In this document: positions 41,024 to 64,000 of the stretch, piece by piece
Numbering within the stretch: the stretch's first letter is position 1
How the letters are laid out: every line of letters begins with the position of its first letter
Assembly (NCBI GenBank): GCA_015178975.1
Contig: WHVD01000095.1
Span: 274,202-338,201, forward strand
Direction of reading: 5' to 3'
DNA: 64,000 nucleotides
From: Hysterangium stoloniferum
Lineage: Eukaryota > Basidiomycota > Agaricomycetes > Hysterangiales > Hysterangiaceae
Position numbers and translations under genes: made by a program
The notes under the pieces: generated by a model
Told to the model about the DNA's origin: nothing
Seen by the model: the letters and a program-made list of their open reading frames with translations, nothing else
Database searches by the model: none

Positions 41024-41865
41024 CCTACCCCCTTGTCACATCTAGTTGAGGTTCTGATAAACAACTTGTTCCCCTTTTGCCACCTCTTAGTTGAGTAGCT
41101 GGCTATCCTTTATTACTAATCCACCTCTAGTTGAGTTGTTGGTTATCAGTTAAAGTAATAAATATTTTAGGTTATATTGAGATTAGAAATACATATATTC
41201 TAATTTCTACCCGGTTTTTGGCATAAATAAATACTGAGAATATTCTTGCAGAATCCTTAAGACTACATTAAAATCCTGATAAGTTAGTATTACAGTAGAC
41301 CCTGTAGGTTAGTGTAAATAAAGCATATATTAGCCAAATAGTCTTTTATTCTATATCTAATCTTTTGACCTGTTTATAAATATTTTTACTGTTTGATAAA
41401 TAGTATAAAATATATATAAACTAGCTAGAATCAAAGTTGAATCTATTTTTGGAATCAGTGAATTGTTATTCATATTTTAGTAGTGTGTTTACAGAAAAAG
41501 AACAAGCTTGCACCAGCAGCTCTCAAAACCTTCTTTACAAAGTAGGGTGCATATATTCAAGTAAACTCTTGACTTCAGGGATTCTAAGTCTATTCAGGCT
41601 GCCACTGATTAATATCAAATCATCAAATAAGTGAAAGGAGCATGGTGGGTCCATGGGCGCTTTTAGGCGCTGTGTGAGGGCGCGGAGTGCCCGAACCCTG
41701 AGGTGTGGGAGAGTATGACTCAGCTTAGTGCCCCTAGCTTAGTCAGCGCCGTGGCAAATCACCTGTGCCTGTGCGTTCCTGTCACGGGCACTGCCAGGTG
41801 TGACGCACCTGCACGGGCATGCCACATTGTTTGCGTGCGAACAGGCATGGTGCACCCACTCCCAT

Positions 41866-42080
41866 CCACAATGCACCCATCCACGACGCACCCATCCACG
41901 ACGCACCCATCCACGATGCACCCATCCACGATGCACCCATCCACGATGCACCCATCCACGATGCACCCATCCACGACACATCCACGATGCACCCATCCAC
42001 AGCGCACCCATCCACCCGCTCCCATCCACCGTGCACCCACCTGCTCCCATCCACCGCATACCCATCCACCCTCTCCCATC
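41866..42080. repeat. 15-bp CCCATCCACGATGCA tandem repeat (E1)
   Basis: About 14 units, varying mainly at the CG (CGA, CAG, CCG). The related array is found at the same position in E3 (50375-50560) and E6 (63305-63570). The period of 15 leaves several frames open on both strands. Confidence 0.92.
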
Positions 42081-42099
42081 CACTGCGCACCACTCACAT

Positions 42100-43295
42100 T
42101 CACGGCGCACCCTCTCTCTTTCCTCCAGGTGATGCGTGTACTCTTTCCTTCTCCCTCTGTCCTGCATTAATCCGCCTCCTCTCTCTTTCCTCCAGCGAGT
42201 GTGTGTACCGTTTCCTTCTCTCTCCATCCTCCTCTGATTGACCTGTTCTCTCTTTCATCCAGCCGGTGCGTGTACCATTTCCTCTTTCTTTGTCCTCTGA
42301 TCATCCTCCTCTCTTTCCTCCAGGTGTGTGTACTGTTTCCTTCTCTCTCCGTCCTCCTCTCATCGGGACCCTCTCTCTTTCCTCCAGCCGGTGCGTCTAC
42401 CATTTCCTTTTTCCTCTGTCCTTCGCTGATTTGCCTCCTCTCTCTTTCCTGCAGCCGGTGCGCGTTCCAGTTCCCTCTCTCTCTGTCCTCTTCTGATCGG
42501 CCCCCTCTCTTCCCTCCAGCCGGTGTGTGTACTGCTCCTTCTCCCTCTGTCCTCCTCTCTCTTTCCTCCAGCCGGTGCATGTACCATTTCCTCCTCCCTT
42601 CGTCCTCCTCTGATTGGCCTCCTCTCTCTTTCCTCCAGGAGGTGTGTACTGTTTCCTTCTCTCTTCGTCCCCCTCTAATTGGCCTCCTCTTTCCTCCAGC
42701 CAGTGTGTGTACTGTTTCTTTCTCCCTTTGTCCTCCTCTGATCGGCCTCCTCTCTTTCCTCCAGGAGGTGCATGTACCATTTCTTTCTCTCTTTGTCCTC
42801 TGATCGGCCTCCTCTCTCTTTCCTCCAGCCACTGCGTGTACCATTTCCTTCTCCCTTCGTCCTCCTCTCTCTTTTCTCCAGGAGGTGCATGTCTCCTTTC
42901 CTCCTCCCTTTGTCCTGCTCTGATTGGCCCCCTCTCTCTTTCCTCCAGCAAGTGCGTGTACTATTTCCTTCTCTCTCCATCCTGCTCTGATTGGCCCTCT
43001 CTCTTCCCTCCAGGTGGTTTGTGTACCCTTTCCTTCTCTCTTCATCCTGCCCTGTTTGGCCTCCATTCTCTTTCCTCCAGCCAGTGCGTGTTCCTCTGAT
43101 TGGCCTACTCCCTCTTTCCTACAGTATGTCTACCATTTCCTTCTTCCACCATCCTCCTCTGACCAGCCCTCTCTTTCCTCCAGGTGGTGTGTGTACCCTT
43201 TCTTCAGTGAGTGTGTGTACTGTTTCCTTCTCTCTTTGTCCAGCTGCTGTGTATACTGTTTCCTTCTTCCTCCGTCCCCCTCTGATTGGCCTCAA
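42100..43295. repeat. Approximately 60-bp pyrimidine-rich minisatellite (E1)
   Basis: About 20 diverged units of the form CTCTCTTTCCTCCAG, then a short link, then GTGYGTGTAC, then CATTTCCTTCTC and a TCCTCCTCTGAT block. A strong pyrimidine tract ending in CAG precedes a GTGCGT-like word in most units. The same block occurs in E3 (50560-51270) and E6 (63700-64000). Confidence 0.92.
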
Positions 43296-43299
43296 TAAA

Positions 43300-43440
43300 A
43301 TCAGAATAATTCAAATAAAATATAATAATGAATATAAAATGTTTAAAAATAAAATAAATCGAAATGAAAAACAATAAAATAAAATAAAATTCAATAAATC
43401 AAAATGAAATATGTTAAATCAAAATAAATAAATTGAGTGA
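43300..43440. repeat. AAATAAAAT-rich low-complexity block (E1)
   Basis: A run of AATAAAAT and AAATCAAAATAAA words. An equivalent block lies in E3 at 51270-51420 and in E4 at 53505-53720. Confidence 0.85.
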
Positions 43441-43467
43441 CCACAGTAATTACTTGCAGTTGAGAGT

Positions 43468-43735
43468 CAATTTAACCACTCTTTCCATTTGTAACCATTG
43501 TTTCCTTTTGTAACCATTGTCTCCTTTGTAACCATGGTTTCCTTTGTAACCTTTGTCTGTTTTTGTAACCATTGTTTCCTGTGTAACTGTTGTTTCTTTT
43601 GTAACCATTGTCTCCTTTTGTAACCATTGTTTCCTTTGTAACCATTGTTTCCTTTTGTAACCGTTGTTTCCTTTTGTAACCATTGTTTCCTTTTGTAACC
43701 TTTGTCTCCTTTTGTAACCATTGTTTCCTTTTGGG
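43468..43735. repeat. TTTGTAACCATTGTTTCCT tandem repeat (E1)
   Basis: About 14 units of 18-20 bp that differ mainly in the length of the T run. The related array is in E3 (51455-51645) and, as an altered form, in E4 (54060-54560). Confidence 0.92.
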
Positions 43736-43759
43736 GCTGTGGCTTCCATTTGTGACTGA

Positions 43760-44310
43760 TGTTTCTGTTCTTAGAACACTTTCTGTTCTTAGAACACTTT
43801 CCGTTCTTAGAACACTTTCTGTTCTTAGAACACTTTCCGTTCTTAGAACACTTTCCGTTCTTAGAACACTTTCCGTTCTTAGAACACTTTCCGTTCTTAG
43901 AACACTTTCCGTTCTTAGAACACTTTCCGTTCTTAGAACACTTTCCGTTCTTAGAACACTTTCCGTTCTTAGAACACTTTCCGTTCTTAGAACACTTTCC
44001 GTTCTTAGAACACTTTCCGTTCTTAGAACACTTTCCGTTCTTAGAACACTTTCCGTTCTTAGAACACTTTCCATTCTTAGAACACTTTCTGCTCTTAGAA
44101 CACTTTCCGCTCTTAGAACACTTTCCGTTCTCTGAACACTTTCCATTATCTGAACACTTTCCGCTCTGAGAACACTTTCCATTCTCTGAACACTTTCCGT
44201 TCTCTGAACACTTTCCGTTCTCTGAACACTTTCCGTTCTCTGAACACTTTCCGTTCTCTGAACACTTTCCGTTCTCTGAACACTTTCCGTTCTCTGAACA
44301 CTTTCTGTTC
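43760..44310. repeat. 18-bp GTTC-NNN-GAAC array (E1)
   Basis: About 30 units of GTTCTTAGAACACTTTCC. The halves GTTC and GAAC are invariant in nearly every unit. The 3-nt centre is TTA through most of the array and TCT in the last 10 or so units, next to the element end. Confidence 0.96.
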
Positions 44311-44475
44311 AAACAATGAGTCTCAGAAATACTTAAAAGTTGTTGACATGGGGGGGTTTGGGGGGCTTCGCCCCCCAACAAGTTGGAGCCCGCAGTGAAG
44401 TTGTGGGGCCAGTCGCGAAGCGACGGCCCCGCAGCATAGCAAGGGTTCCTAAGCTTGTCATCATCATCCAATCCA

Positions 44476-47400
44476 ATAAGTGAAAGGAGCATGGTGGGTC
44501 CGTGGGCATTTTTAGGCGCTGTGACAGCCGTAAAAGGTAGGTAAAAGGTACCATCAGCTTAGTCACCTCCTTAGTCAGCGCACCCATCCCACGGTGCACC
44601 CATCCCACGACGCACCCATCCACGCACCCACCGCACACCCATCCACGACGCACCCATCCACCGCGCACCCATCCACCGCACGCCCATCCACACACCTATC
44701 CACCGCGGTGCACATTCCCTTTCAGCTGGGTTCCAGATAAGCCACATAGTGCTCTTTGTGATATATCACACTTGCATTTTTTCCTTGAGTGTATTCTTCT
44801 ACTATTATGGATCGAACCCCTGAGTGTGATCAGGAGGAGGAGCGGAACAGACATAGGGCACAATTGCAGATGACATCACCATCTGACCGCCATCGATGTT
44901 CAGCTGTGGCTCATTATGATGTACCACCCCCTCCTCAACCATTCCCACATGCCTCTGTTGTTTCAGGTCCATCTGATGATCCATTTGTGGCTGCTCCACA
45001 ACCACCACAGTTGCCTCAGCAAGGTGTGATTCCTCCTGCACCCCAAGTGGGGAGTAGTGCCATGGCAGCATTATGGGATCAGTATGCAAATTTGCCACGA
45101 TTACAAGCTCTTGGGCTGGGTCGTCAAGCAGCAAATGTACCTGTTCAACCACAGGCCCCAAATGCCCAATTAGCACCTGCAGATCAATCTATCCAGCCTA
45201 CAGTTGGTTCTGCTGCAGTAGCTGCTTTGCGTGCTCGGTTGGCTACTTTGCCACCATTACGACAACCTGCTGAACGGCATTGTGCACAGGCAAATGCAGC
45301 TGCTCAGATTCAGAATCATCCACCATTACAGCAACCTGCTCAACTGCAGCCACCAATTTTACAGTCAGCACCACATTCACAGCTTGGTCGTCCATCTGTA
45401 CCACTGCACCATGGTCATCCACCTATTAATGCAGTTCCACCACTTCAGGGACAAGTACCTGTTTTTCAGTTGGCACTACCACAGCATCACCATCCACCTG
45501 TTCATCCAGCAGCAAATGCACAGCAACAGCCACAGTTGGCGCCACCCCCAGCCATTCCAGATCCTGCAGTCATCCCTCCACTTCCACTTCCTGTTGCACA
45601 ATTACCCATTGGAAGGCAGCCAGTTGTGGAGGCCAGGTTTCCAAGACATGATGTGGGACATATGAACATACAGTGTTCACACTGTGGAGCTTTACACTGG
45701 ATGGAAGAGCGTCTGTCAGCTAGCTCTCGGACAACACCAAAGTTTGGCAAGTGTTGCAAGCAAGGAAAGATCATCCTTCCAATACTTGAACCAGTCCCTC
45801 CTACCTTAAAGTCTCTTTTTGAGGATAATACAGACAATGCCAAGGAATTTCGCAAAAATATCCGTGCATATAATAATGCATTTGCATTTATATCACTTGG
45901 TGTCAAATTGGATGAGTCTGTCTTGCAAGGCGGTCGGGGCCCATATGTCTTTAAAATACATGGTGGATTGTATCATGAGCATGGTTCCTTAATCCCATAC
46001 GGGGAAGATGTATCACCCACTTATGCTCAGCTTTACATCCCTGATCCTGCACTGGCACGTGAGGATGCACTGGGGAATGCATTGCAGATAAGGCAGAATC
46101 ACAGGGCAAATCGGAATCTAAACAATCAAACCTTTTCTGACTTGCAGGACATGATGGAGCAATATAATCCCTTTAAAGTACTCTATCGCCAGGCACATGA
46201 GCGATTGAGGACACAGGCAGAGACTCCAAGGTTACATGTTAGACTGAGCTACAAGGCTTTTACTGATCCCCGACAGTACAACCTTCCAACTGGTGATGAA
46301 CTTGCAGTCATTGTGCCTGGAGATGGTGATACAGGTCAGGGTGATCCAAGGGATATTATTGTTCAGAGAAGGGGGGGCCTTTCCATTGAATGCATGAAGG
46401 ACAGGCCATTTGTACACCCCTTCATTATGTCATGCTCTTTCCCAGGGGTGAGTGTGGTTGGTCATGGGACATTCCCTATGCAAATAACAATTGGCAGCCT
46501 CAGGCTGCACAGCAGCATGAACAAGCTGAAGAAGAAGACAAAAGTCGTAAGGTGACCCAGCGTGAATATTATGCCTATCGCCTATTTCTTAGAGCAAATG
46601 AAGCCAAAACCATTTTTTATGCACAAAAGCTGTTCCAGCAGTACATTGTTGATGCCTGGGCAGTCACAGAACAGAGTATATTGAAGTTTCTGAGTGAAAA
46701 TCAACCAAGGATACGTGCAGAACTCTACAACCAGGTCGTTGATGCTTTTTCAAATGATGATATCAATCCCAATAGTATCGGTCAGAGGGTCATACTCCCT
46801 TCTTCATTTACTGGCAGTTCAAGGGATATGAGGCAAAGTCTGCAAAATTCTTTTGCAATTGCACGCAAGTATGGCAATGCCAGCTGCTTCATCACCATGA
46901 CTGCTAATCCCAATTGGGAGGAGGTCACCCGTGAATTGCTTCCTGGCCAGACCCCTGCTGATCGCCCTGATTTGGTCTCACATGTCTTTGCTATCAAAAA
47001 GGCTAAAATGCTGAAAATGATTACAGAGGGCCATATCTTTGGTAAAACAGTAGCACATATCCATGTCATTGAATTCCAAAAGCGGGGTCTTCCACACATG
47101 CACTGTCTTATATGGTTTGAGGAGCAGGATAAGCCAAGGACACCTGCAGATGTCGATTCAATTATTTCTGCCTGTTTTCCAGATCCTGAAACACATCCCA
47201 GACTATTTAATTTAGTAGGTCAACTCATGACCCATGGCCCCTGCAGTCTTCATCATCCAAATGCTGCCTGTATGGCCAATGGTACATGTGGTAAATTCTT
47301 CCCAAAGGATTGGTGTGAAGCCACCATTGTCAATCAGGAAGGCTATCCATTCTACCTTCGTCCCAACAATGGGAGGGTTTATGTAACTCCCAAGTTTACA

Positions 47401-50103
47401 TATGACAACAGATATGTTGTTCCTTACTCTCCTATTCTGCTTCTCACCTTTGAGTGTCATATCAATGTCGAGTTGGTCTTTACCAATAGATCAATGAAGT
47501 ATATGCATAAATACTGTTACAAAGGCCCCGATCGCACAACTATGGAGGTTGGAAAGACACCAGATGAGATTAAACAGTATCTTGATGCACGATATGTTAG
47601 TGCACATAAGTCTGTCGGGCGATTAATGCGCAATGAACTCCACACCCAGGTTCCTGCAGTAATGGCACTTTGTGTCCATCTCCCTGGGGAAAACACTGTC
47701 ATTTTTGATGCTGATCAGGGTCCTGCTGAGGCTTTACAAAGGGCAGAGCGTGCTGGCACAACTTTAATGGCTTATTTTGAAGCTAATGCCAAGGATCTTA
47801 TTGGCTACAATGGTCGCCGTGCCAGGGACACATTGTATATGGATTTTCCTGAGTATTTTACATTTGTAGCTAGGACTAAATCATGGAAGCCATGTCAAAG
47901 TGGTTTTTCCATAGGACGCATCCATTTTGTCAATGCTGCCTGTGGTGAAAGATTCCACCTCCATACATTGCTCACTGTCGTCCAAGGTGCCACCTCATTT
48001 GAAAATCTAAGGACTTTTCAGGGTGAGACCCATCCCACATTTCAACAAGCCTGTGTTGCACGTGGTTTGCTTGAAGATGATCGCCAGTGGAACATGTGCC
48101 TCAGAGAAGCCAGTCGCATACAGCCTGGCCTTCAACTTCGCAGGTTGTTCGTCATCATTTTGACCATGTCCTCCCCTGCACAACCTCAAGAACTCTGGGA
48201 TGAGTTCAAAGAATTTATCTGTGATGATTTGGACTGGATCCTGAGGGTTACATATAACATTGACAATGCAGCACCTCACACAATTTATGACTTTGGTCTC
48301 TATCAGATTGATAAAATCCTCCGCTATTCTGGAAAGTCTCTTTCACTCTATCCAACCATGCCACAAATCACTGAGGATTGGGATCAGTTCATTGGCAATC
48401 ATCTCATTAGGGAGCAGAAGAATTATAATCTTGATCATGAGCATGCCAGTGCCCAAGCCAATCTTGAAAATTTCAATCCTGAACAACAAGTGGCTTTTGA
48501 CACTATCATCAAGGCAGTTGATGAACAGCAGGAGGGTAAAATGTTCTTTGTCAATGGCCCAGGTGGCACTGGCAAGTCCTTTGTATGGAATACTCTTGCA
48601 CATGCATGTCGTGCCAAAGGCTACATTGTCCTTTGTGTCGCCTCATCTGGAATTGCATCAATGATTCTCATAGGTGGTCGCACCTCTCATAGCATGTTTG
48701 CAATTCCTGTTCCCTGTGAGAAGAACTCCTCATATCACATCAAAAAGGGCTCAGAAAAGGCAGAGCTCATGAAGCAAGTACGCCTCATCATCTGGGATGA
48801 AGTTCCAATGCAGTCACGTTTCATATGTGAGGCAGTCGACAGAACTCTAAGTGTATTAGACAAAGATGCTCTCCTCTTTGGAGGCATTCCTGTTGCCTGG
48901 GGAGGTGACTTCCAGCAGACTTTGCCTGTTGTACAATGTGCCTCTAAACAACAGATTATTGGTGAATGTATTCAAAAATCTCAACTCTGGAACCATGTCA
49001 AGGTACTTTTCTTGAAAAAGAATATGCGGGTTGATCAACATGATCCACACAGTGATCAGTTTTCTCAGTGGCTCTTAGATGTAGGCCATGGAAAGGATTT
49101 GCCTTTGGATCATACAATGGATATCCCTCCTCATATGATCTGTGGTCCAGAAATGTCTGATCTAATTGCTGAGATATATCCAGACATCCATGTGGATGGA
49201 GACCAAAGAGATTGGCAAGATGGAGACTTCTTAGACCGTGCTATTCTGTGTCCCAGGAATTCAGATGTGGAAGAAATTAATTCAGAACTTCTGAATAGAT
49301 TCCCTGGAGTGAGTCGTGTCTACCACAGTGCTGACACTGCAGAGGGTGACATGGAGGCAGAAGTCTATCCTGTGGAATATTTCAATAGTCTTAACTTTGG
49401 TGGAATTCCACCAAGTTGACTTGAGATGAAGCCAGGAGTACCTTTAATGCTACTACGGAACATAGATCCACAGATGGGACTTTTCAATGGTACAAAGTTG
49501 CGACTACTGAAAATGGAAAATCATTTGCTTTTGGTGCGGATCTTAACTGGACCATGTGCTGGGGAAGAGGCATTTATTTCAAGGATTAAAATCATTACAA
49601 ATGATGATGAACTCCCTTTTAAACTTCATCGGGTTCAGTTTCCAGTATGACTGGCATTTGCAATGACAATTAACAAGTCACAGGGACAATCTTTGAAATT
49701 AGTAGGATTAGATTTGAGAACGGCTGTGTTTGGACATGGGCAATTGTATGTAGGACTTTCAAGGGGAAGAAGTTGGAATAGGGTTAAAATATTATTAGAG
49801 AAGGAGTCAAAGAGAACTGCAAATATAGTGTACAAAGATGTATTCTTAGATTGAGAATTTGATATATTTTGATTGTTTTTTTCCTGACAATGATTGTATT
49901 AGATAGTAAAGAGTTGTGGATGTGAGGGGTTTGCATAGGAAAGTGGGGGGTAGGTCATTTTGATTTTGATAAATACTTAAGAGTTGTCGACGTGGGGGGG
50001 TTTGGGGGGCTTCGCCCCCCAACAAGCTGGAGCCCACAGCGAAGTTGTGGGGCCAGTCGCAAAGCGACCGCCCCGCAGCGTAGCAAGGGTTCCTAAGCTT
50101 GTC
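44476..50103 (+). mobile_element. Helitron array E2: autonomous type, degenerate, subfamily A
   Basis: Starts with the same AAGTGAAAGGAGCATGG as E1, 16 bp after the end of E1. It carries the broken Rep-helicase gene 44807-49854 and ends with GGGGGGCTTCGCCCCCC (50004-50020) and CCTAAGCTTGTC. CCCATCC-type repeats occur briefly at 44580-44700. Its leader is short (about 330 bp) compared with E5. Confidence 0.8.
44807..49854 (+). pseudogene. Helitron Rep-helicase, broken copy
   Basis: ATG at 44807 begins MDRTPECDQEEER and a Pro/Gln-rich N-terminus. The zinc-finger-like CSHCGALHW is near 45675. A one-base deletion near 46380, relative to E5, shifts the frame. The rest continues from 46381 with RGLPHMHCLIWF, KYMHKYCYKG, GPGGTGKS and LIIWDE all intact. 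TGA codons at 49417-49419 and 49648-49650 stand where E5 has CGA and CGG. The final piece reads TINKSQGQS and [10 protein letters not shown]. With three lesions it cannot make a full protein, although truncated products are possible. Confidence 0.92.
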
Positions 50104-50374
50104 ATCCAATAAGTGAAAGGAGCATGGTGGGTCTGTGGGCGTCCTTAGGCGCCGCAGGCCGTGTTCATGAGGGCGCGGAGCACCCGAACCTGACTGTGTG
50201 ACTAAGCTTGACGCACAAAGGTCCTTATTACCTCAGCACGGGAGCAAATGCAGAGGCTTTTTGGCGTTCACGGGAGTATTTGTGGTGCCATGGGAGCATT
50301 GTGTGACATTTTGTTAGGTGCGGGAACTTTTTCGTGACAGAATTATTTTATACATGCACAGCATTTTCAATCGC

Positions 50375-50560
50375 ACACCCATCCACCCGCTCCCATCTAC
50401 CACGCACCCCATCCACCGCGCACCTGCTCCCATCCACCGTGCACCACGCACCTGCACCCATCCACCGCGCACCCATCCACCGCGCACCTGCACTGCGTAC
50501 CTCCCATCCACTGCGCACCCGCTCCCATTCACGGCACACCCTCTCCCATTCATGGCACAC
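50375..50560. repeat. CCCATCCACC-type tandem repeat (E3)
   Basis: Units of about 15 bp containing CCCATCCACCGCGCA, interrupted by CTGCTCC variants. Counterpart of 41866-42080. Confidence 0.88.
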
Positions 50561-51270
50561 CCTCTCTTTCCTCCAGGTGATGTGTGTACTCTTTCCTTCT
50601 CCCTCTGTCCTGTGCTAATCTGCCTCCTCTCTCTTTCCTCCAGTGAGTGTGTGTACTGTTTCCTTCTCTCTGTGTCCTCCTCTGATTGGCCTCCTCTCTT
50701 TCCTCCAGCCAGTGGGTGTACCGTTTCTTTCTCCCTTTGTCCTCCTCTGATCAGCCTCCTCTCTCTTTCCTCCAGGAGGTGTATACCGTTTCCTTCTCTC
50801 TTCGTCCTCTGATCGGCCTCCTCTCTCTTTCCTCCCGCCACTGTGTGTACCGTTTCCTCCTCCCTTCGTCCTCCTCTCTCTTTTCTCTAGGAGGTGCATG
50901 TCCCCTTTCCTCCTCCCTCCGTCCTGCTCTGATTGGCCCCCTCTCTCTTTCCTCCAGTAAGTGCGTGTACTATTTCCTTCTCTCTCCATCCTGCTCTGAT
51001 CGGCCCTCTCTCTTCCCTCCAGGTGGTTTGTGTACCCTTTCCTTCTCTCTTCATCCTGCCCTGATTGGCCTCCATTCTCTTTCCTCCAGCCAGTGCGTGT
51101 TCCTCTGATTGGCCTACTCTCTCTTTCCTACAGTATGTCTACCATTTCCTTCTTCCACCATCCTCCTCTGACCAGCCCTCTCTTTCCTCCAGGTGGTGTG
51201 TGTACCCTTTCTTCAGTGAGTGTGTGTACTGTTTCCTTCTTCCTCCGTCCCCCTCTGATCGGCCTCAATA
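50560..51270. repeat. Approximately 60-bp pyrimidine-rich minisatellite (E3)
   Basis: About 11 units of the E1 type. The right two-thirds (50885-51260) are nearly identical to 42880-43300 of E1, including the odd shortened units, so E1 and E3 share a recent common source. Confidence 0.9.
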
Positions 51271-53500: not shown

Positions 53501-53504
53501 TTCG

Positions 53505-54290: not shown

Positions 54291-54800
54291 AACGGGTGTT
54301 TCCATTGTAACGGGTGTTTCCGTTGTAATGGGTGTTTCCGTTGTAACGGGTGTTTCCGTTGTAACGGGTGTTTCCGTTGTAACGGGTGTTTCCGTTGTAA
54401 CGGGTGTTTCCGTTGTAACGGGTGTTTCCGTTGTAACGGGTGTTTCCATTGTAACGGGTGTTTCCATTGTAATGGGTGTTTCCATTGTAATGGGTGTTTC
54501 CTTTGTAATGGGTGTTTCCATTGTAACGGGTGTTTCCATTGTAACAGATGTTTCCGTTAGACTTTACATTCTATGAGACTTTACGTTGTAATAATGGGTG
54601 TTCCATTGTAATAACGGGTGTTCCGTTGTAATAACGGGTGTTTGCATTGTAACGGGTGTTTGCATTGTAACGGGTGTTTGCATTGTAACGGGTGTTTGCA
54701 TTGTAACGGGTGTTTGCATTGTAACGGGTGTTTGCATTGTAACGGGTGTTTGCATTGTAACGGGTGTTTGCGTTGTAATAACAGGTGTTTCTGTTGTAAT
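54290..54800. repeat. 18-bp GTAACGGGTGTTTCCGTT and GTAACGGGTGTTTGCATT arrays (E4)
   Basis: Two consecutive arrays (54290-54560, about 15 units; 54600-54800, about 10 units) share GTAACGGGTGTTT and differ in the last five bases. The period is 18 bp. A boundary with single-unit changes (GTAATAACGGGTGTT) lies near 54600. Confidence 0.93.
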
Positions 54801-54814
54801 AATGGGTGCCATTC

Positions 54815-55075
54815 TAAGCTAACTTTCCTTTCTAAGGTGACTTTCCATTTTAATGTGACTTTCCATTCTAAAGTGACTTTCCATTCTAAAGTGCCTTTCC
54901 ATTCTAAAGTGACTTTCCATTCTAAAGTGCCTTTCCATTCTAAAGTGACTTTCCATTCTAAAGTGACTTTCCATTCTAAAGTGACTTTCCATTCTAAAGT
55001 GACTTTCCATTCTAAAGTGACTTTCCATTCTAAAGTGACTTTCCATTCTAAAGTGACTTCCCATCCTTTAAAGAC
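54815..55075. repeat. 18-bp CTTTCCATTCTAAAGTGA array (E4)
   Basis: About 14 units with very little variation (CTGA, CTGC at one place). The core CTTTCCATTCT resembles CTTTCCGTTCT of the following array, suggesting derivation from the same ancestral unit. Confidence 0.93.
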
Positions 55076-55094
55076 TTTCTGAACACTTTCCATT

Positions 55095-55790
55095 CTTACG
55101 TTCTACGAGACTTTACGTTCTACGAACACTTTACGTTCTACGAACACTTTACGTTCTACGAACACTTTACGTTCTACGAACACTTTCCATTCTAGGAACA
55201 CTTTCCGTTCTACGAACACTTTCCGTTCTACGAACACTTTCCGTTCTACGAACACTTTCCGTTCTACGAACACTTTCCGTTCTACGAACACTTTCCGTTC
55301 TACGAACACTTTCCGTTCTACGAACACTTTCCGTTCTACGAACACTTTCCGTTCTACGAACACTTTCCGTTCTACGAACACTTTCCGTTCTAAGAACACT
55401 TTCCGTTCTAAGAACACTTTCCGTTCTAAGAACACTTTCCGTTCTAAGAACACTTTCCGTTCTCTGAACACTTTCCGTTCTCTGAACACTTTCCGTTCTC
55501 TGAACACTTTCCGTTCTCTGAACACTTTCCGTTCTCTGAACACTTTCCGTTCTCTGAACACTTTCCGTTCTCTGAACACTTTCCGTTCTCTGAACACTTT
55601 CCGTTCTCTGAACACTTTCCGTTCTCTGAACACTTTCCGTTCTCTGAACACTTTCCGTTCTCTGAACACTTTCCGTTCTCTGAACACTTTCCGTTCTCTG
55701 AACACTTTCCGTTCTCTGAACACTTTCCGTTCTCTGAACACTTTCCGTTCTCTGAACACTTTCCGTTCTCTGAGCACTTTCCGTTCAAAC
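55095..55790. repeat. 18-bp GTTC-NNN-GAAC array (E4)
   Basis: About 38 units in three clean blocks: centre TAC (55100-55385), TAA (55385-55450), and TCT (55450-55785). Half sites are invariant. The TCT block is again closest to the element end. Confidence 0.96.
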
Positions 55791-56279
55791 GATGAGTCTC
55801 AGAAATACTTAAAAGTTGTCGATGCGGGGGGGTTTGGGGGGCGAAGCCCCCCAACAAGCTGGAGCCCGCAGCGAAGTTGTGGGGCCGGTCGCGAAGCGAC
55901 CGCCCCGCAGCGTAGCAAGGGTTCCTAAGCTTGTCAATCATATAAAGTAAAGTTGTACGGTGGGTGGTGGGCGCTTTTTAGGCGCCGAAGGCGCCCCAAT
56001 CCGTGAGGGCGCGGAGCGCCCGAGCTTCTTCCCCATCAGGGTCGAAAAATCCCGATGAGGGTGCGTGTGAGTGTGTGACTAAGCTGAGGGCGCGCTAGCG
56101 CCCGAAGTCTCTTATTAGTCAGCGCGGGGGCATTTTTGCACACGCGGGAGTATTTAATGACGCCGCGGGAGCTTTTCTCACGGCGCGGGAGCTTTTCCGT
56201 GACATTTGTGACATACCCGGAACTATTTTGCGACGCGTGGGAACATTTTAGGCCATAGCCGCGGGAAGCCCGGAAGCCC

Positions 56280-57288
56280 GCTGTAAAGCCTTGAGGCTGC
56301 CATACTTTCTCCCTTCCCCTCTCCCTCCCCCGGCTTTGTCCTCTTTAAATTGTGAGGGGATCCTCTCTGGAATATTTCTCAAGGTATCTGGGCCCATATC
56401 AAGGTGTGTTGAGGGCTCTATTTAATCCTATTAAATTTCGCTTTTTTAATAATTAAATATATTATTCTGCAGTTAGAGTCTGGCCATCCACTGGCCCTGG
56501 ACCCCCCATATTGAGCATTTATCATCTCTGAACCCTTCTTCAACTCCTCAGGCAATATAAAAGGTGTGGTGAGCTTCTACCAATTATTATTTAATTTTCG
56601 CTTTTTTTAATGATTAAATAATTTATTGGCAGTCAGATTACCCTTTCCCGGGTGTTCTTCTCATTCATAATTTTGAAATACACAGTCTGAAGACTATCCT
56701 ATAATATCAGGTATGTTTTGGGCTTTCTCATGCTGTTGTAATATATTTATGCATTATTTTACCCATTTTTGGGTTATTTTAGATCTATTTGTCTGAATTT
56801 CCTTTCCATAGGACTCTCCACTGCTTTTTGAGTCTTCTCTGTGATTATAAGCCGAGTATTGAAGGTGATTCCTGTCCCTGTAATTAATCTTACCTTTTTT
56901 TGCTCAAATATTGTTCTTACAGTGAAATTGACCGTCTATTCTGGGCCGTTTTGCCTTGATTGCTGTTTCTATTGTTACTGGAAGATATAACATATCTCCC
57001 AGTTTATATTGGTACCTTCCCTCATGCTATTAAAAGATATTTATACATTATTGTTCATGTTTTTAGGCTATTTTAGAGCCATTTGTCTGCATTTCTTTTC
57101 TGCCACTCTCTACTGTGTTTGTGACCACTCCATATAAGTATAAGTGGAGTATTGAAAGTGAGTCCTTTCCCTGTAATTTTCTTTGGCTTATTTTAGTCTA
57201 ATTCACCACAACTTTCTGCCCCTCCTCTCTTCCCCCTCTCTTGCAGGGTTTCTCTCTCTGCTACTACTGCTGTGATTGCTATATTAGT
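56280..57288 (+). promoter_or_regulatory. Leader of the Helitron gene with duplicated intron-like cassettes
   Basis: Several donor/acceptor pairs can be read: GTGTGTTGAG to TTCTGCAG, GTGTGGTGAG to TTGGCAG, GTATGTTTTG to TCCATAG, GTGATTCCTG to CTTACAG, and GTGAGTCCTT to CTTGCAG just before the coding exon. Two cassettes with TTTCGCTTTTTTAAT and AATTATT/ATTATT acceptors repeat at 56430-56510 and 56578-56630. A second approximately 170-bp cassette repeats at 56700-56890 and 57010-57180. This looks like a leader with multiple short introns. Splicing is inferred. Confidence 0.5.
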
Positions 57289-60200
57289 ATGGATCGAACA
57301 CCTGAGCGTAATCGGGAGGAGGAGCGAAGGCAGCGTAGGGCACAATTGCAAATGACATCTCCATCTGATCGTCATCGACGTTTAGCTGTGAATTCTAATA
57401 TATTACTCCCTCCTCGACCATTTGGAGATCTCCCTGTTGGTAGAGGTCAACCTGATAATCCATTTTTGGTTGCTCAGCCAGGTGGCTCTACTGCAGGTGG
57501 CTCTACTGCAGGTGGCTCTGCTACAGGTGGCTCTGCTGCAAGTGGCTCTGCTGCAAGTGGCTCTGCTGCAAGTGGCTCTGCTGCAAGTGGCTCTGCTGCA
57601 AGTGGCTCTGCTGCAAGTGGCTCTGCTGCAGGTGGCTCTGCTATAGTTGGCTCTGATGCAGTGGCTCTTTTGCGTAGGCAGTATGAAAATTTGCCACCAT
57701 TACAACCTCTTAGGCAGGGTCGTGGACGGAGAAATCCAGCTGCTCAATTGCAGCAACCAATTTTGCAGTTAGCACCACATATCCAGCAGGGTCATCAACC
57801 AGCAAATGCACCAGGTCATGTACGAGGCAATGTAGCTGCTCAATTGCAGCAACCAATTTTGCAGTTAGCACCACATATCCAGCAAGGTCATCAACCAGCA
57901 AATGCACCTGTTCAGCCACAGGCACCAGGTCATGTACGAGGCAATGTAGCTGCTCAACTTCAGCAACCACTTTATATACAACAGGGTGCACCTGCAGGTG
58001 AAGCTGTCCAGCCTGCAGTTGGCTCTGCTGGAGTAGCTGCTCTGTATGCTCAGTATGCTGCTTTACCACGGTTAGACCAACCTGCTCAACTGCAGCCACA
58101 AATTTTACAGTCAGCACCACATCCACAGCATGGTCATCAACCAGGAAATGTAGCTGCACCACTACAGTATCACCATCCACAGCAGCAACAACCACCTATT
58201 TTACAGTGGGAACCACCACAGCATTACCATCCACAGCAACAACAACCACCTATTTTGCAGTGGCAACCACCACAGCATTTCCATCCACCTGGACATCCAG
58301 CTCCACAACAACAACAACAACCTATATTGCAGTGGGCACCACCACAGCTTCACCATCCACCTGGAAATCCAGCTCCACAACAGCAACAACAGCTACAGTT
58401 AGTACTACCTCCTGCCATTCCACAACTCCAGGCACAGGTACCTATTTTGCAGTTACCACCACCACAGCAGCATCATCCACCTGGAAATCCAGCTCCACAA
58501 CAACAACAAGCACCTATTTTGCAGTGGGCACCACCACAGCTTCACCATCTACCTGAAAATCCAGCTCCACAACAGCAACAGCAACTACAGTTAGCCCCAC
58601 TTCCAGTTATTCCCCCACCTCCAGTTATTCCCCCACCTCCAGCCATTTTACAGCCTGCAGCTATGCCTCCACCTCCCATTCCACAATTACCTATTGGACG
58701 GCAACCAGTTGTGGAGGACCGGTTTCAAAGACATGACTTGGGACGTATGGACATACAGTGTTCAGACTGTGGAGCTTTGCACTGGATGGATGAGCGTATC
58801 TCAAATAGCTCTAAGACACATCCAAAATTTGGCAAGTGTTGCAAGCGAGGAAAGGTGGCCCTCCCAATACTTGAGCCAGTCCCTCACACTTTAAGGTCTC
58901 TCCTGGAGAATAACACAGACAATAGCAGAGAATTTCTCAAGAATATTCGTGCCTATAATAATGCATTTGCATTTACATCACTCGGTGTCAATTTGGATGA
59001 GTCTGTCTTGCAAGGCGGTGGTGGCCCATATGTCTTCAAAATCCATGGTGAATTGTATCACCAGCATGGTGCCTTGATTCCTTACACAGAAGGTGTATCA
59101 CGTAGTTATGCTCAGCTTTACATCCATGATCCTGCATTGGCACAGGAGGATGGACTGAGGCAGGCATTGCAGCAGAGGCAGAATCACAGGGCAAATAGAA
59201 ACCTAAATAACCAAACCTTTTCTGACTTGCAGGATATGATGGAGCAATATAATCCCTTTATACAACTCTATCGCCAGGCACATGAGCGATTGAGGACACA
59301 GGCAGAGACTCCAAGGTTACATGTCAGGCTGAGCTACAAAGCTTTTAATGATCCCAGACGGTACAATCTTCCAACCGGTGATGAACTTGCAGTCATTCTC
59401 CCTGGAGATGGTGATACAGGTCGTGGTGACCCAAGGGATATTATTGTTCAGAGGAGAGGGGGCCAGTTCCATCATGTCCATGATGCACAAGCCATTTATA
59501 CACCCCTTCATTATGTCATGCTCTTTCCCAGGGGTGAGCGTGGTTGGTCATGGGACATTCCCTATGCCAATCAAAATTGGCAGCCCCAGCCTGGACAGCA
59601 GGATGAAGAAGGTGAAGATGAAGATAAAAGTCGGAAGGTGACCCAATGTGAATATTATGCCTATCGCCTATTTCCCAGAGCATACGAAGCCATGACCCTT
59701 TTTTATGCACAAAAGCTATTCCAACAGTATATTGTCAATGCCTGGGCAGTAACGGAGCAGCGCAGATTGAGGTTTCTCAGAGATAATCAACCAAGGTTAC
59801 GTGCAGAACTCTACAACCAGGTGGTCGATGCCTTTACACGTGAGGATGTCAACACAGATGCCAATAGTATTGGTCAGAGGGTCATACTTCTTTCTACATT
59901 TACTGGCAGTTCAAGGGATATGAGACAAAGTTTGCAAAATTCATTTGCAATTGCACGAAAGTATGGCAATGCCAGCTGCTTCATCACCATGACAGCCAAT
60001 CCCAAGTGGAAGGAGGTTACTGATGAATTGCTTCCTGGCCAGACTCCAGCTGATCGTCCTGATTTAGTCTCCAGGGTCTTTGCTGCCAAGAAGGCTAAGT
60101 TGCTCAAGATGATCACAGAGGACCACATCTTTGGTAGAACAGTAGCCCACATCCATGTCATTGAATTCCAAAAGCGGGGTCTTCCACACATGCACTGCCT

Positions 60201-62943
60201 TATATGGTTTGATGACCAGAATAAGCCAAGGACACCAGAAGATGTTGACTCCATGGTTTCTGCCTGTTTTCCAGATCCTGAAACACATCCCAGACTGTTT
60301 AATTTAGTAGGTCAGCTCATGACCCATGGTCCCTGTGGAACTGATCATCCAAATGCTGCCTGTATGGTAGATAAGGAATGCAGTAAACACTATCCAAAGG
60401 ATTGGTGTGAAGCCACTATTGTCAATGAGGAAGGCTATCCAACATGCCGTCGCCCCAACAATGGAAGGGTTTATCAAACTCCCAAGTTTACATATGACAA
60501 CAGACATGTTGTCCCTTACTCCCCCATTTTGATTCTCACCTTTGAATGTCACATCAATGTAGAGTTGACCTTTACCAATAGGTCAATGAAGTACATGCAT
60601 AAATACTGTTACAAGGGCCATGATCGTACAACTATGGAATTTGGAAAGACACCAGATGAAATTCAACAGTACATTGATGCACGTTATGTCAGTGCACATG
60701 AATCTGTCTGGCGGTTAATGCGTAATGAACTCCACACCCAGGTTCCTGCAGTAATGGCACTTGGTGTCCATCTTCCTGGGGAAAACACTGTACTTTTTGA
60801 TGCTGATCAAGGTCCTGCTGAGGCTTTACAAAGGGCAGAGCGTTCAGGGACAACTCTCATGGCTTATTTTGAAGCTAATGCCAAGGGTCTCATTGGTTAT
60901 AATGGACAGCGTGCCCAGGACACATTTTATATGGACTTTCCTGAGTATTTCACATATGTCCCCAAGAAGAAATCATGGAAGCCACGTCAAAGTGGTTTTT
61001 CCATAGGGCGCATTCATTTTGTCAATATTGCCAGTGGGGAAAGATTCCACCTCCGTACTTTGCTCACTGTTGTCAAAGGTGCCACCTCATTTGAACAGCT
61101 CAGGACTTTTCAGGGTGAGACTTATCCCACATTTCAGCAAGCCTGTGTTGCACATGGTTTGCTTGAAGATGACCGCCAGTGGCACATGTGCCTCACAGAA
61201 GCCAGTCGCATAGAGTCTGGGTTTCAACTTCGCAGGTTGTTTGCCATCATTTTGACCATGTCCTCCCCTGCACAACCCCATGAACTCTGGAATGACTTTA
61301 AAGTATTTCTTTGTGATGATTTGAAGTTCATACTTCAGCAAAAACATGGCATTGTCAATCCATCACCAGACAGGATTTATGACTTTGGTCTCTATGAGAT
61401 TGATAAGATCCTCCGCTATTCTGGAAAGTCCCTTTCACACTATCCAACCATGCCAAACTGCACTGATGTTTGGGATGGCATTGTTGGCAACCGTCTCATT
61501 AGGGAGCAGTCAGATTATGATGTTGATATTGAGCATGCCAGTGCCCAAGCCAATCTTGAAAAGTGTAATCCTGAACAACGAGCTGCCTTTGAGACTATAA
61601 TGAAAGCAGTGGATGAGCAGCAGGGCAAATTGTTTTTTGTGAATGGTCCAGGTGGTACTGGCAAGTCCTTTGTATGGAATACTCTGGCACATGCATGTAG
61701 GGCCAAGGGCTACATTGTACTTTGTGTGGCATCTTCTGGAATTGCATCAATGATTCTCAAGGGTGGTCGCACCTCTCACAGCACATTTTCAATCCCTGTT
61801 CCCTGTGAGAAGGATGCTCTATGTCATATCAAAAAGGGTTCAGAAAAAGCAGAGCTCATGAAGAAGGTCCGACTGATTATCTGGGATGAAGTTCCCATGC
61901 AGTCACGTTTCACATGTGAGGCAGTTGACAGAACCCTGAGGGATTTATTAGACAAGGAGGATCTTCCCTTTGGAGGGATCCCTGTGGCCTGGGGAGGTGA
62001 CTTCCAGCAGACTTTGCCTGTTGTACCAAAGGGTTCAAAAGAACAGATCATTGGACAATGTATCCAGAAATCAGAACTCTGGAAGCATATCAAGGTACTC
62101 TTCTTGAAAAAGAATATGCGGGTGGACCAGGATGATCCAGACAGTGAACAGTTTGCTCAGTGGCTATTGGATATAGGCCATGGAAAGGATTTACCTTTGG
62201 ATCATACAATGGATATCCCTCCTCATATGATCTGTGGTCCAGAAATGTCAGATCTAATTGCTGAGATATATCCAGACATCCATGTGGATAGAGACCAAAG
62301 GGATTGGCAAGATGAAGTCTTCTTAGACCGGGCAATTCTGTGTCCAAGGAATTCAGAAGTAGATGAGATTAATTCAGAACTTCTGAATAAATTCCCTGGA
62401 GAGAGTCGTATGTATCACAGTGCTGATACTGCAGAGGGAGACAGTGAGACAGAGATGTATCCTGTAGAGTATTTGAATGGCCTGAATTTTGGTGGAATCC
62501 CACCAAGTCGACTTGAGGTGAAGCCAGGAGTGCCATTGATGCTGTTACGGAACATAGATCCACAGAGGGGGCTTTTCAATGGGACACGATTGCGACTGGT
62601 GAAAATGGAAAATCATTTGCTTCAAGTGCGGATTCTAACTGGACCATGTACTGGAAAAATGGCATTTCTTTCACGGATCAAAATAATTACAAATGATGAT
62701 CAACTGCCATTTAAACTGCATCGTATTCAGTTTCCAGTGCGGTTGGCATTTGCAATGACGATTAACAAGTCACAGGGACAGTCTTTGAAAGTGGTGGGAA
62801 TAGATTTGAGAATGGCAGTGTTTGGACATGGGCAATTGTATGTGGGACTTTCAAGGGGAAGAAGTTGGAATAGGATAAAAATATTATTAAAGGAGACAAA
62901 GAGAACAGCAAATATAGTGTACAAAGATGTATTATTAGATTGA
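57289..62943 (+). CDS. Helitron Rep-helicase transposase, intact
   Basis: 1884 codons without interruption. The N-terminus has Gly-Ser-Ala repeats (GSAAS units, 57490-57650) and a Pro/Gln-rich section to about residue 465. A zinc-finger-like block follows (CSDCGALHW about 490, KCCKRGK). The Rep domain has the HUH motif in RGLPHMHCLIWF (His967, His969) and the paired tyrosines in KYMHKYCYKG (Tyr1102 and Tyr1106). The Pif1-type SF1 helicase has GPGGTGKS (from residue 1453), LIIWDE (about 1530), AWGGDFQQTLPVV and, at the end, TINKSQGQS and [10 protein letters not shown]. Rep nicks and joins single-stranded DNA and the helicase unwinds it during rolling-circle-like transposition. I start at ATG 57289 because E2 starts at the same MDRTPE. 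The open frame upstream begins at an intron acceptor. Confidence 0.95.
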   Translation: MDRTPERNREEERRQRRAQLQMTSPSDRHRRLAVNSNILLPPRPFGDLPVGRGQPDNPFLVAQPGGSTAGGSTAGGSATGGSAASGSAASGSAASGSAASGSAASGSAASGSAAGGSAIVGSDAVALLRRQYENLPPLQPLRQGRGRRNPAAQLQQPILQLAPHIQQGHQPANAPGHVRGNVAAQLQQPILQLAPHIQQGHQPANAPVQPQAPGHVRGNVAAQLQQPLYIQQGAPAGEAVQPAVGSAGVAALYAQYAALPRLDQPAQLQPQILQSAPHPQHGHQPGNVAAPLQYHHPQQQQPPILQWEPPQHYHPQQQQPPILQWQPPQHFHPPGHPAPQQQQQPILQWAPPQLHHPPGNPAPQQQQQLQLVLPPAIPQLQAQVPILQLPPPQQHHPPGNPAPQQQQAPILQWAPPQLHHLPENPAPQQQQQLQLAPLPVIPPPPVIPPPPAILQPAAMPPPPIPQLPIGRQPVVEDRFQRHDLGRMDIQCSDCGALHWMDERISNSSKTHPKFGKCCKRGKVALPILEPVPHTLRSLLENNTDNSREFLKNIRAYNNAFAFTSLGVNLDESVLQGGGGPYVFKIHGELYHQHGALIPYTEGVSRSYAQLYIHDPALAQEDGLRQALQQRQNHRANRNLNNQTFSDLQDMMEQYNPFIQLYRQAHERLRTQAETPRLHVRLSYKAFNDPRRYNLPTGDELAVILPGDGDTGRGDPRDIIVQRRGGQFHHVHDAQAIYTPLHYVMLFPRGERGWSWDIPYANQNWQPQPGQQDEEGEDEDKSRKVTQCEYYAYRLFPRAYEAMTLFYAQKLFQQYIVNAWAVTEQRRLRFLRDNQPRLRAELYNQVVDAFTREDVNTDANSIGQRVILLSTFTGSSRDMRQSLQNSFAIARKYGNASCFITMTANPKWKEVTDELLPGQTPADRPDLVSRVFAAKKAKLLKMITEDHIFGRTVAHIHVIEFQKRGLPHMHCLIWFDDQNKPRTPEDVDSMVSACFPDPETHPRLFNLVGQLMTHGPCGTDHPNAACMVDKECSKHYPKDWCEATIVNEEGYPTCRRPNNGRVYQTPKFTYDNRHVVPYSPILILTFECHINVELTFTNRSMKYMHKYCYKGHDRTTMEFGKTPDEIQQYIDARYVSAHESVWRLMRNELHTQVPAVMALGVHLPGENTVLFDADQGPAEALQRAERSGTTLMAYFEANAKGLIGYNGQRAQDTFYMDFPEYFTYVPKKKSWKPRQSGFSIGRIHFVNIASGERFHLRTLLTVVKGATSFEQLRTFQGETYPTFQQACVAHGLLEDDRQWHMCLTEASRIESGFQLRRLFAIILTMSSPAQPHELWNDFKVFLCDDLKFILQQKHGIVNPSPDRIYDFGLYEIDKILRYSGKSLSHYPTMPNCTDVWDGIVGNRLIREQSDYDVDIEHASAQANLEKCNPEQRAAFETIMKAVDEQQGKLFFVNGPGGTGKSFVWNTLAHACRAKGYIVLCVASSGIASMILKGGRTSHSTFSIPVPCEKDALCHIKKGSEKAELMKKVRLIIWDEVPMQSRFTCEAVDRTLRDLLDKEDLPFGGIPVAWGGDFQQTLPVVPKGSKEQIIGQCIQKSELWKHIKVLFLKKNMRVDQDDPDSEQFAQWLLDIGHGKDLPLDHTMDIPPHMICGPEMSDLIAEIYPDIHVDRDQRDWQDEVFLDRAILCPRNSEVDEINSELLNKFPGESRMYHSADTAEGDSETEMYPVEYLNGLNFGGIPPSRLEVKPGVPLMLLRNIDPQRGLFNGTRLRLVKMENHLLQVRILTGPCTGKMAFLSRIKIITNDDQLPFKLHRIQFPVRLAFAMTINKSQGQSLKVVGIDLRMAVFGHGQLYVGLSRGRSWNRIKILLKETKRTANIVYKDVLLD
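57490..57650. repeat. 15-bp coding repeat (GSAAS units)
   Basis: About 10 units of CTCTGCTGCAAGTGG within the Helitron gene. E2 lacks the array at the same place, so it is a recent expansion of a low-complexity linker. The unit length keeps the frame. Confidence 0.92.
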
Positions 62944-63304
62944 AGTTTTAATGTATTTTGATTGATTGTTTCTAACTTTTCTAACTTCTAACAGTGATTG
63001 TGATATGTAAATACTTAGAAGTGCTGAGAAATACTTAAGAGTCATGGACGCGGGGGGGTTTGGGGGGCGAAGCCCCCCAACAAGCCGGAGCCCGCAGCGA
63101 AGTTGGGGGGCAGGTCGCGAAGCGACCGCCCCGCAGCGTAGCAAGGGTTCCCAGGCTTGTCCATATATAGTAAAGTTGCTTGGTGGTTCCGTGTGGGCGG
63201 ATTAGTCACTATTGTACGTAAGCAAGGGGACAATCGGCGTATTTTTGGTTGCTCACGCGAACATTGGTGACGTGACGCACACGCAATTGCTGCAAGCCCG
63301 CTGT

Positions 63305-63570
63305 CAAGCCTCCATCCACCGCGCACCGGCTCCCATCCACCGCGCACCCATCCACCGCGCACCCATCCATGGCGCACCCATCCACGCGAACCCAACCACC
63401 CGCACCCATCCACCCGTACCCATCCACCCGTACCCATCCACGGCGCACCCATCCGCCGCGCACCCATCCGCCGCGCACCCATTCACCGCGCACCCATCCG
63501 CCGCGCACCCATCCACCGCGTACCCATCCATGACGCACCCACTCCCATCCACGGCGCACACACTCCCATC
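63305..63570. repeat. 15-bp CCCATCCACCGCGCA tandem repeat (E6)
   Basis: About 17 units, with variants CCGTACCCATCCACC and CCGCCGCGCACCCAT. Counterpart of the arrays in E1 and E3, although E6 starts with the subfamily-B end. Confidence 0.92.
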
Positions 63571-63699
63571 CATGGGCACATGCCTGCCCGCCCACTCGGG
63601 CACAAACCGGCAAAGCGCGTTCCGTTTGCCAACGCGCGCACGCGCCACGCCTGTTCGCAACGCGCTGTGCCCATTTGTGCCCAATTGGGCGTGCACCCT

Positions 63700-64000
63700 G
63701 CTCTGATCGGCCCCTCCAGTTGGTGCGTGTCCCCTTTCCTTCTCTCTTCATCCTCCTCTGATCGTCCTCACCTCTTCCTCCAGGATGTGTGTCCCTTTCC
63801 TTCTCTCTTTGTCTGTCTGTCTTTCCTCCAGTTGGTGCGTGTCCCCTTTTCTTCTCTCTTCGTCCTCCTCTGATTGCCTCCTCACTCTTTCCTCCAGGAT
63901 GTGTGTGTACCCTTTCTTTCTCTCTTCGTCCTCCACTCATGGGCCTCCTCTCTTCCCTCCAGGAAGTGCATGTACCCTTTCCTTCTCTCTTCGTCCTCCT
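63700..64000. repeat. Approximately 60-bp pyrimidine-rich minisatellite (E6, partial)
   Basis: About five units with TTTCCTCCAGGATGTGTGT or CTCCAGTTGGTGCGTGT followed by CCCTTTCCTTCTCTCTT (each in part). It continues beyond the window. Confidence 0.9.

Follow-up and report, generated by a model that had tools for sequence, protein, structure and literature searches.

The array at the end of contig C550

The window analysed here is a stretch of 64,000 nucleotides from the basidiomycete Hysterangium stoloniferum (bases 274202-338201 of contig C550, WHVD01000095.1, in an assembly of 111 Mb and 554 contigs), which carries a stack of Helitron transposons from position 41623 to its end. Five complete elements (E1-E5, 41623-63159) lie head to tail and are followed by the start of a sixth (E6), all on the plus strand, and the contig terminates exactly at the end of the window (64000), inside the array. 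The 5' motif AAGTGAAAGGAGCATGG occurs at 41629, 44478 and 50111 (chance expectation 0.01), AGTAAAGTTGTACGGTGGG at 52691 and 55946, and a related sixth start motif, AGTAAAGTTGCTTGG, at 63169, while the 3'-end motif GCAAGGGTTCC(T/C)A(A/G)GCTTG finishes at 44457, 50101, 52662, 55933 and 63159. The inter-element gaps measure, in order, 14, 3, 19, 4 and 0 nt and are composed of 5' stubs, short units such as TCA. Two families are distinguished by their 5' ends, family A (TCAAATAAGTGAAAGG or TCCAATAAGTG) and family B (TCATATAAAGTAAAGTTG, TCAATATATAGTAAAGTTG and variants). The 3' ends of the five complete elements have about 140 bp in common, with a mean column identity of 92% and CTTG as the last bases.

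E1 (41623-44457) is a non-autonomous family-A element (TCAAATAAGTG...CTTG) with 18-19 bp internal satellites and no Rep match; a TCA stub (41620-41622), missing from the copies of the host repeat, separates it from a host A (41619). The stub ladder TCA-TCA-TCA-TCCAA (44458-44471) leads to E2 (44472-50101), an autonomous-type member of family A whose Rep-helicase gene is broken into two overlapping frames (44789-46555 and 46390-49419) with stops. Behind a further TCA stub (50102-50104) lies E3 (50105-52662), non-autonomous, of family A and filled with satellites of the same 18-19 bp size. The 19-nt stub TCATATAAGTGAATTCGCA (52663-52681), the first 16 nt of which equal the 5' end of a third family (C) found behind a 3' end on contig C112, precedes E4 (52682-55933), another satellite-packed (18-19 bp) non-autonomous element that combines a family-B 5' end with a 3' end of family-A type (TAAGCTTG). 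A TCAA stub (55934-55937) separates E4 from E5 (55938-63159), an autonomous-type family-B element with an equal-length copy on contig C234, and E6 (63160-64000), a family-B-like Helitron truncated to its 5' part where the contig stops, follows E5 through the direct junction CTTG|TCCATATATAG.

A first-pass annotation had described six elements placed head to tail in a single orientation, with almost no DNA between them, and this anatomy is what we find: five complete elements and the start of a sixth, all on one strand, with gaps of 0-19 nt that are all 5' stubs. Its 5' ends need correction, as they lie 6-9 nt further upstream, at a TC. The grouping into two non-autonomous/autonomous/non-autonomous triplets, each with one 5' start, the same ends throughout and a Rep-helicase element in the middle, stands in part. 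E1-E3 do form such a triplet with a common 5' start, and both E2 and E5 carry Rep-helicase genes of Helitron type, but that of E2 is broken. In the second group E4 and E5 share their start, but E6 opens with another subtype (TCCATATATAGTAAAGTTGCTTGG) and is truncated by the contig end, and the 3' end of E4 is of the other family's type. In the main, the array is confirmed as real, and similar stacking is widespread in the genome.

The E5 protein, termini and target site

The E5 gene (57241-62943, plus strand) is open over 1900 codons and encodes a 1900-aa Rep/PIF1-type helicase with the domains Helitron_like_N (9e-57), PIF1 (9e-74) and Pif1_2B (2e-13); a Pfam domain scan detected no extra endonuclease or OTU-type domain in it, and an NCBIfam scan of P0001 gave no match above the cut-off. 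The protein has 3825 homologues, and basidiomycete, plant and arthropod proteins are among the named ones of the 120 listed. E5 and its copy on C234 both measure 7214 bp between the same motifs and are 96.9% identical in DNA and 99.5% in protein. The N-terminal part of the E5 protein (window 57482-58642) is long and of low complexity, with internal tandem repeats.

Upstream of 41623 the window consists of a dispersed host repeat (41024-41628), of which about 20 further copies were scored, roughly 95-97% identical to it. Of 20 copies fetched, 19 read TTAATATCAAATACTTAAATT (TTAATATCAAA^TACTT), the 20th being devoid of the probe motif, and the window reads TTAATATCAAA-TCA-TCAAATAAGTG. Because these copies are unfilled at that point, the array must have been inserted between an A and a T (A^T), its element begins with TC, and the additional TCA does not belong to the host; the empty site sets the TC start at 41619-41623, the left edge of the array. 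A second empty site is available for an array on contig C124, whose two flanks, ...CTAA on the left and TCCCCTACTA... on the right, adjoin each other at a paralogous site on C508 (CTAATCGCCTACTAGATGC...), and therefore the entire 21.8-kb array, ladder included, occupies one A^T. The comparison shows no target duplication, and the empty site is free of a ladder. Host target DNA was considered as the origin of the spacers and is ruled out by the empty sites at these two loci, the window and C124, which are those where ladders were checked in this way. From C124:77985 onward, a few bases past the last CTTG, lies a dispersed repeat beginning at about CTAAGGTAGGTGTCACTTTAG (nearly 40 scored copies), perhaps a miniature inverted-repeat transposable element. 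Among the host-side starts with a recognizable 5' end, 44 of 45 read A|TC, the exception standing behind an apparent further CCTTG end.

The elements thus start with 5'-TC, end with CTTG-3' and insert at A^T. Rep (HUH) and PIF1-type helicase are united in one protein in E5, insertion between A and T proceeds without target duplication (left side of the window array; both sides of the C124 array), and a 3' hairpin is present, its stem in E5 being GGTCGCGAAGCGACC, about 30 nt upstream of the end, all as in canonical Helitrons (Helitron1), but their 3'-CTRR is replaced by CTTG at all five 3' ends of the window. The 3' end of E5 (63080-63159) with its subterminal hairpin folds as DNA with -27.6 kcal/mol (z -5.9), and three 3'-end windows of 63-80 nt beat their shuffles (z -3.4 to -5.9), whereas the last 40 nt of E5 alone fold no better than shuffles (z +1.4). 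The window elements are hence HELPO2-like CTTG Helitrons and not strict CTRR members; HELPO2 of Pleurotus ostreatus, with its CTTG end, was filed as a helitron by its authors (Castanera et al. 2014, PMC4289320). The comparison with Helentrons and Helentron-associated interspersed elements (HINEs), drawn in the first-pass annotation, does not hold, as a Helentron (Helitron2) identity is ruled out by the A^T target, the TC start and the domain content.

Stacking across the genome

With no more than one mismatch allowed, the genome has at least 395 copies of the 3' end as well as 136 family-A starts, nine of which form one tandem run; exact matches to the family-B start number 61. The sequence upstream was read for 114 unique starts. 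Family B is represented by 60 of its 61 listed starts (C550:10014 was left out), and family A by 54 unique starts of 136, comprising 15 from the window and from regions selected for their resemblance to arrays, one at a family-B locus and 38 taken in list order (L068-L107), the nine tandem units of contig C51 being excluded. Directly behind the 3' end of another element stand 65 of the 114 starts, namely 29 of 60 in family B and 36 of 54 in family A; the window and the array-like regions contributed 11 of 15, and the list-order loci 26 of 40, or 24 of 38 when duplicates are removed. By simple arithmetic, 395 ends in 111 Mb would lead by chance to about 0.01 of the 114 starts lying behind a 3' end. 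The remaining 49 are not behind a recognized 3' end, and four of them have no recognizable TC start.

Arrays of at least three members occur on C28, C112, C124, C168, C234 and C550, and a pair on C535; that on C28 extends over 47 kb, with 13 complete elements and the start of a 14th. All 81 close neighbour pairs (80 distinct) in the fetched DNA are head-to-tail, none being head-to-head or tail-to-tail, and no A-A head-to-head junction turned up in a genome-wide search that tolerated up to 3 mismatches. In the main, these counts confirm head-to-tail stacking as a common arrangement of these Helitrons in this genome and not a curiosity of one locus. A subtelomeric location was also considered; no (TTAGGG)3 or (CCCTAA)3 run is present in the window or in seven large fetched regions, and the clustering at contig ends is confounded by assembly breaks.

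The halt of the window array exactly at a contig end, in data that consist of contigs, could be taken for the mark of an assembly artefact. Such an origin is extremely improbable, however, given that seven arrays, differing in their members and joined exactly, lie on separate contigs, and that C124 presents both flanks together with a matching paralogous empty site.

Relatedness of the array members

Two origins had been suggested in the first-pass annotation, rolling-circle read-through and a preference of insertion for existing ends. Out of 39 elements compared, 30 had a relative of more than 400 bp among those read and nine had none; the best relative was the neighbour in none of the 30, and was found elsewhere in the same array in two. 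The closest matches of E2, E4 and E5 lie on C124 (97%), C28 (96%) and C234 (97%), respectively, and E5 and its C234 copy reside in two arrays with different neighbours and different stubs. Since neighbours differ as elements, serial insertion is favoured over concatemers, in which one event would copy several units, or adjoining elements as a composite, and of the two suggestions insertion preference is the better one. Read-through has a precedent in the tandem arrays of bat and silkworm, which have been ascribed to bypassed termination (in the accessible portion of PMC4067079), and in the present genome it would agree with the upstream junction that three C157 loci (L100, L101 and L102) have in common, with a C69 junction (L085) equal to a C168 junction over the 140 bases compared, with the 44-bp units of C51, identical over the bases shown, and with the correlation of CpG decay between neighbours (rho 0.55). 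Against it stand the lack of any element whose best relative is its neighbour and the different surroundings of the two E5 copies, and as a general explanation we regard it as improbable.

In the C157 loci and in the C69/C168 pair both the junction and the bases beside it are shared, as would be the case for segmental copies or composite elements. Some composite copying, judged from these shared junctions, is possible.

Integration of circles by homologous recombination through the conserved 3' end of about 140 bp would likewise impose head-to-tail order and CTTG|TC junctions, and the five 3' ends in the window do have a mean column identity of 92%. This route is very unlikely, as the 5' family and the type of 3' end are linked (in a manual reading of complete elements, TAAG accompanies A in 12 of 13 and CAGG accompanies B in 21 of 22), and crossovers upstream of the TAAG/CAGG site would scramble the types. 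Two complete elements are swapped in comparison with the other 33, E4 (B with TAAG) and the C168 element of locus L027 (6109-8602, minus strand; A with CAGG). From their end sequences, these two may possibly be recombinants or products of gene conversion.

Alternation of autonomous and non-autonomous members

The matched alternation that had been noted in the window is not a rule. With N for non-autonomous and A for autonomous, the arrays read NANNA, NNNANNANNANAN, ANAN, NANAN, NNNAA and NNN. Labels were set by hand, gene remnants were counted as A and one C112 element was scored N without a Rep search. Compared with within-array shuffles there are eight N-A-N triplets against 4.0 (P = 0.02), 19 alternating neighbours against 14.7 (P = 0.05) and one A-A pair against 2.6 (P = 0.18). 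Because several measures were tried and remnant genes were counted as autonomous, we consider alternation unproven and at most a weak trend.

Junctions, stubs and ladders

Among 78 unique junctions, 48 are exact CTTG|TC, 26 contain stubs or altered 5' ends, two contain remainders (truncated 5' ends) and two are of other kinds. The common stubs are TCA, TCAA, TCAAA, TCCAA, TCATA, TCCATATA and the 19-mer of the third family; by their sequence they resemble pieces from the 5' termini of Helitron families that stop at an A followed by T. A few rarer units (TCCTA and others) stayed without assignment. Of 53 immediate stubs, 31 repeat the first bases of the very element that they precede, and the distribution of TCA/TCATA versus TCAA before B2 and B1 gave a Fisher P of 0.056. 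Ladders reach 22 units (C28). Their mean length is 2.29 before elements that are not behind a 3' end (n = 48), versus 0.46 behind 3' ends (n = 68; P = 2e-6), and 0.27 at 3275 random A^T sites.

In two cases a stub and a remainder match across an insert. On C28 the order is TCAA-[element]-TATATAG and on C112 TCAA-[element ending TTTG]-TATATAG, and in both TCAA and TATATAG sum to the family-B 5' end TCAATATATAG.

Longer units occur as well. On C124 a 23-nt stub ending in CTTG resembles a mini-element and is the only one in the genome. Locus L015 (C51:36583-36955) has nine family-A 5' ends at 44-bp spacing, an array of multiple 5' ends, in which the first eight 44-bp units end in CTAG and stand head to tail before an apparent full 5' end. 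Both the 23-nt and the 44-bp stubs look as if an internal tetranucleotide resembling a 3' end had been used.

The side on which the arrays grow

Starting from the directly observed anatomy, junctions, polarity and heterotypic membership of the arrays, the two empty sites and the two matched stub/remainder insertions, we infer a predominance of growth on the 5' side, a step involving a nick or a bound Rep, and an origin for most of the stubs. We propose that the arrays probably, though by no means certainly, grow by serial and independent insertions at the 5' edge of an element already in place. Together, the host A and the leading T of this resident would constitute an A^T target, and insertion there would generate A-[TC new CTTG]-[TC old CTTG]-T with a clean CTTG|TC junction; A^TC would be recreated before the newcomer, making the site self-renewing, so that the stack would lengthen at its 5' side. 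Since the polarity is strict, while A^T alone reads alike on both strands, the target would have to be Rep-directed, most simply by a resident left end, nicked or bound by transposase, which would offer the 3'-OH of the A to the 5' end of the incoming strand. Stubs would be left where the newcomer inserts, or its strand is joined, a few nucleotides past the first base of the resident (TCA^T, TCAA^T, TCAAA^T), and repeated or abortive events could build the ladders.

The opposite polarity of growth would produce the same CTTG|TC junctions in the same orientation. A transposase holding the 5' end of element X could cleave a resident Y at CTTG^T, a natural Rep substrate, and join the CTTG 3'-OH of Y to the TC of X, performing in trans the reaction that closes circles, in which case the stack would grow at its 3' side. 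A GT site behind the resident was indeed left open as an option for a maize pair (Du et al. 2008, PMC2267711, accessible portion), E4-E5 look younger than the elements upstream of them, and the arrays other than C28 show no age order in favour of the 5' side. This 3'-edge mode, however, requires a second class of target (G^T) beside the A^T of 44 of the 45 host-side junctions, yields neither the stub/remainder sandwiches nor the ladders before leftmost elements, and predicts an age order opposite to that of C28; we consider it rather unlikely. Growth at the 5' side is favoured by the A^T rule at host-side junctions, by the C28 and C112 sandwiches and by the position of the ladders at the left edge. 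The retention of CpG in the C28 array, which drops from 5' to 3' (rho -0.82, P = 3e-4, 14 elements), fits it, and the age order by CpG decay pooled over seven arrays gave P = 0.0012 with the 5' measure and P = 0.023 with the 3' measure. The 19-nt stub at 52663 would then be a trace of E4-E6 entering the 5' end of a further element that now lies beyond the contig end.

Several observations weigh against insertion at the 5' edge, or limit its reach. Clear age order is present in one array of the seven (C28); without it the net order is 0 of 44 pairs (P = 0.55) and that by the 3' measure is slightly reversed (P = 0.89). Adjacent pairs are split, 15 having the younger-looking member upstream and 17 downstream; within the window, E1-E3 appear older than E4-E5 behind them, and an age test of stub-bearing versus direct junctions gave P = 0.22. 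Remainder junctions are rare (four of TATAWAG form and the one on C112), stubs being far commoner, and a search for family-A remainders (TAAGTG form) yielded 0 matches; nested insertion therefore cannot account for most stubs. The matching stub on C124 is not immediately before the insert, and the remainders on C90 and C544 are not traceable to their stubs. Parts of other ladders may be host repeats, and the ladder unit TCAAA at the window is host DNA.

We tentatively suggest, as a speculative extension of growth at the 5' edge, that the resident left end is a preferred and self-renewing landing site by virtue of the transposase nick, and that misfires of this nick (short primer extension, then rejoining of the 5' end) might duplicate the 3-5 leading nucleotides as far as an A, or a stretch reaching an internal CTTG/CTAG, resulting in (TCA)n, (TCAA)n and the 44-bp repeats. 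If this were true, rolling-circle initiations that abort would give rise to new microsatellites and minisatellites.

Other features of the window

Outside the array, the window carries nested long inverted repeats at 18994-24012 (268 nt at 99%, 184 nt at 94% and 36 nt at 100%) and a further long inverted repeat at 22612-25147 (644 nt at 98%), both perhaps terminal inverted repeats of DNA transposons. A 19-bp tandem repeat (GTCACAACAAGTGACTGTC) is present in 14 copies at 39032-39304, and 40015-40655 is occupied by a dispersed repeat, for which some 20 other copies were scored with an identity of roughly 95-97%. A JmjC-domain gene (Pfam 1e-20) lies at 7101-8144; its best organism-named match is from Hysterangium stoloniferum itself (82% identity over 39% of the query), and Sphaerobolus, Suillus and other basidiomycetes score lower.

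Relation to known Helitrons and significance

Head-to-tail Helitrons have been on record since 2007-2008, in cases too few to separate concatemers from serial insertion, or insertion at a 5' A^T from that at a 3' G^T. In plant centromeres, tandem Helitrons reportedly consist of truncated copies with many 5' ends and one 3' end, as Xiong and colleagues are said to have described in 2016; the extra 5' ends would resemble the 44-bp units of C51, whereas the array members read here are mostly two-ended and of different families. PMC5148889, as far as the accessible text goes, cites a finding of this kind.

A close parallel in type is HELPO2 (Castanera et al. 2014, PMC4289320), likewise from a basidiomycete, inserting at A^T and provided with RepHel, a subterminal hairpin and a CTTG-3' end. 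In the accessible portion of that paper, helitron clusters are reported on chromosomes I and VII, but unlike here neither head-to-tail stacks nor 5' stubs are described, and the word "tandem" is absent from its main text. Helraiser and Helibat (Grabundzija et al. 2016, 2018; PMC4778049, PMC5876387) agree with the present elements in TC start and A^T target, but have a CTAG end in place of CTTG, and self-stacking, as seen here, is not described in the accessible parts of these papers, which report a precise junction of right to left end in circles as well as a nick and a replication fork at the left end. Helitron2/Helentron elements of Fusarium and animals resemble ours in RepHel, in non-autonomous partners with tandem repeats and in a few fungal tandem cases; they differ, according to the accessible text of PMC5148889 and PMC4067079, by asymmetric terminal inverted repeats and T-rich or TNAT/T targets, against A^T and an E5 protein devoid of an endonuclease-type Pfam domain here. 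The same portions mention distantly related Helitrons directly adjoining each other in bat and maize.

The maize pair of Du et al. (2008, PMC2267711) is a close parallel to the stacking itself: two different Helitrons are joined head to tail, as here, by a CTAG|TC (G/T) junction, and in the accessible portion the authors considered both an A^T made of the host A and the resident's T and a GT site behind the resident, leaving the matter undecided. That was a single pair of unresolved order, whereas in the present genome stacking involves roughly half or more of the starts sampled and reaches 13 complete elements in one array, and stubs and sandwiches give evidence on the order. Judged on the open-access literature, the case is a new form of a known phenomenon.

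H. stoloniferum, with Helitron ends by the hundred and stacking at roughly half or more of the starts sampled, makes both distinctions testable, that between concatemers and serial insertion and that between the 5' A^T and the 3' G^T. If left ends are the targets, Helitrons would shape their own clusters, may thereby spare host genes, and may supply neighbours for composite capture. In the stub ladders, single nicking events may have left a legible trace of what happened in vivo.

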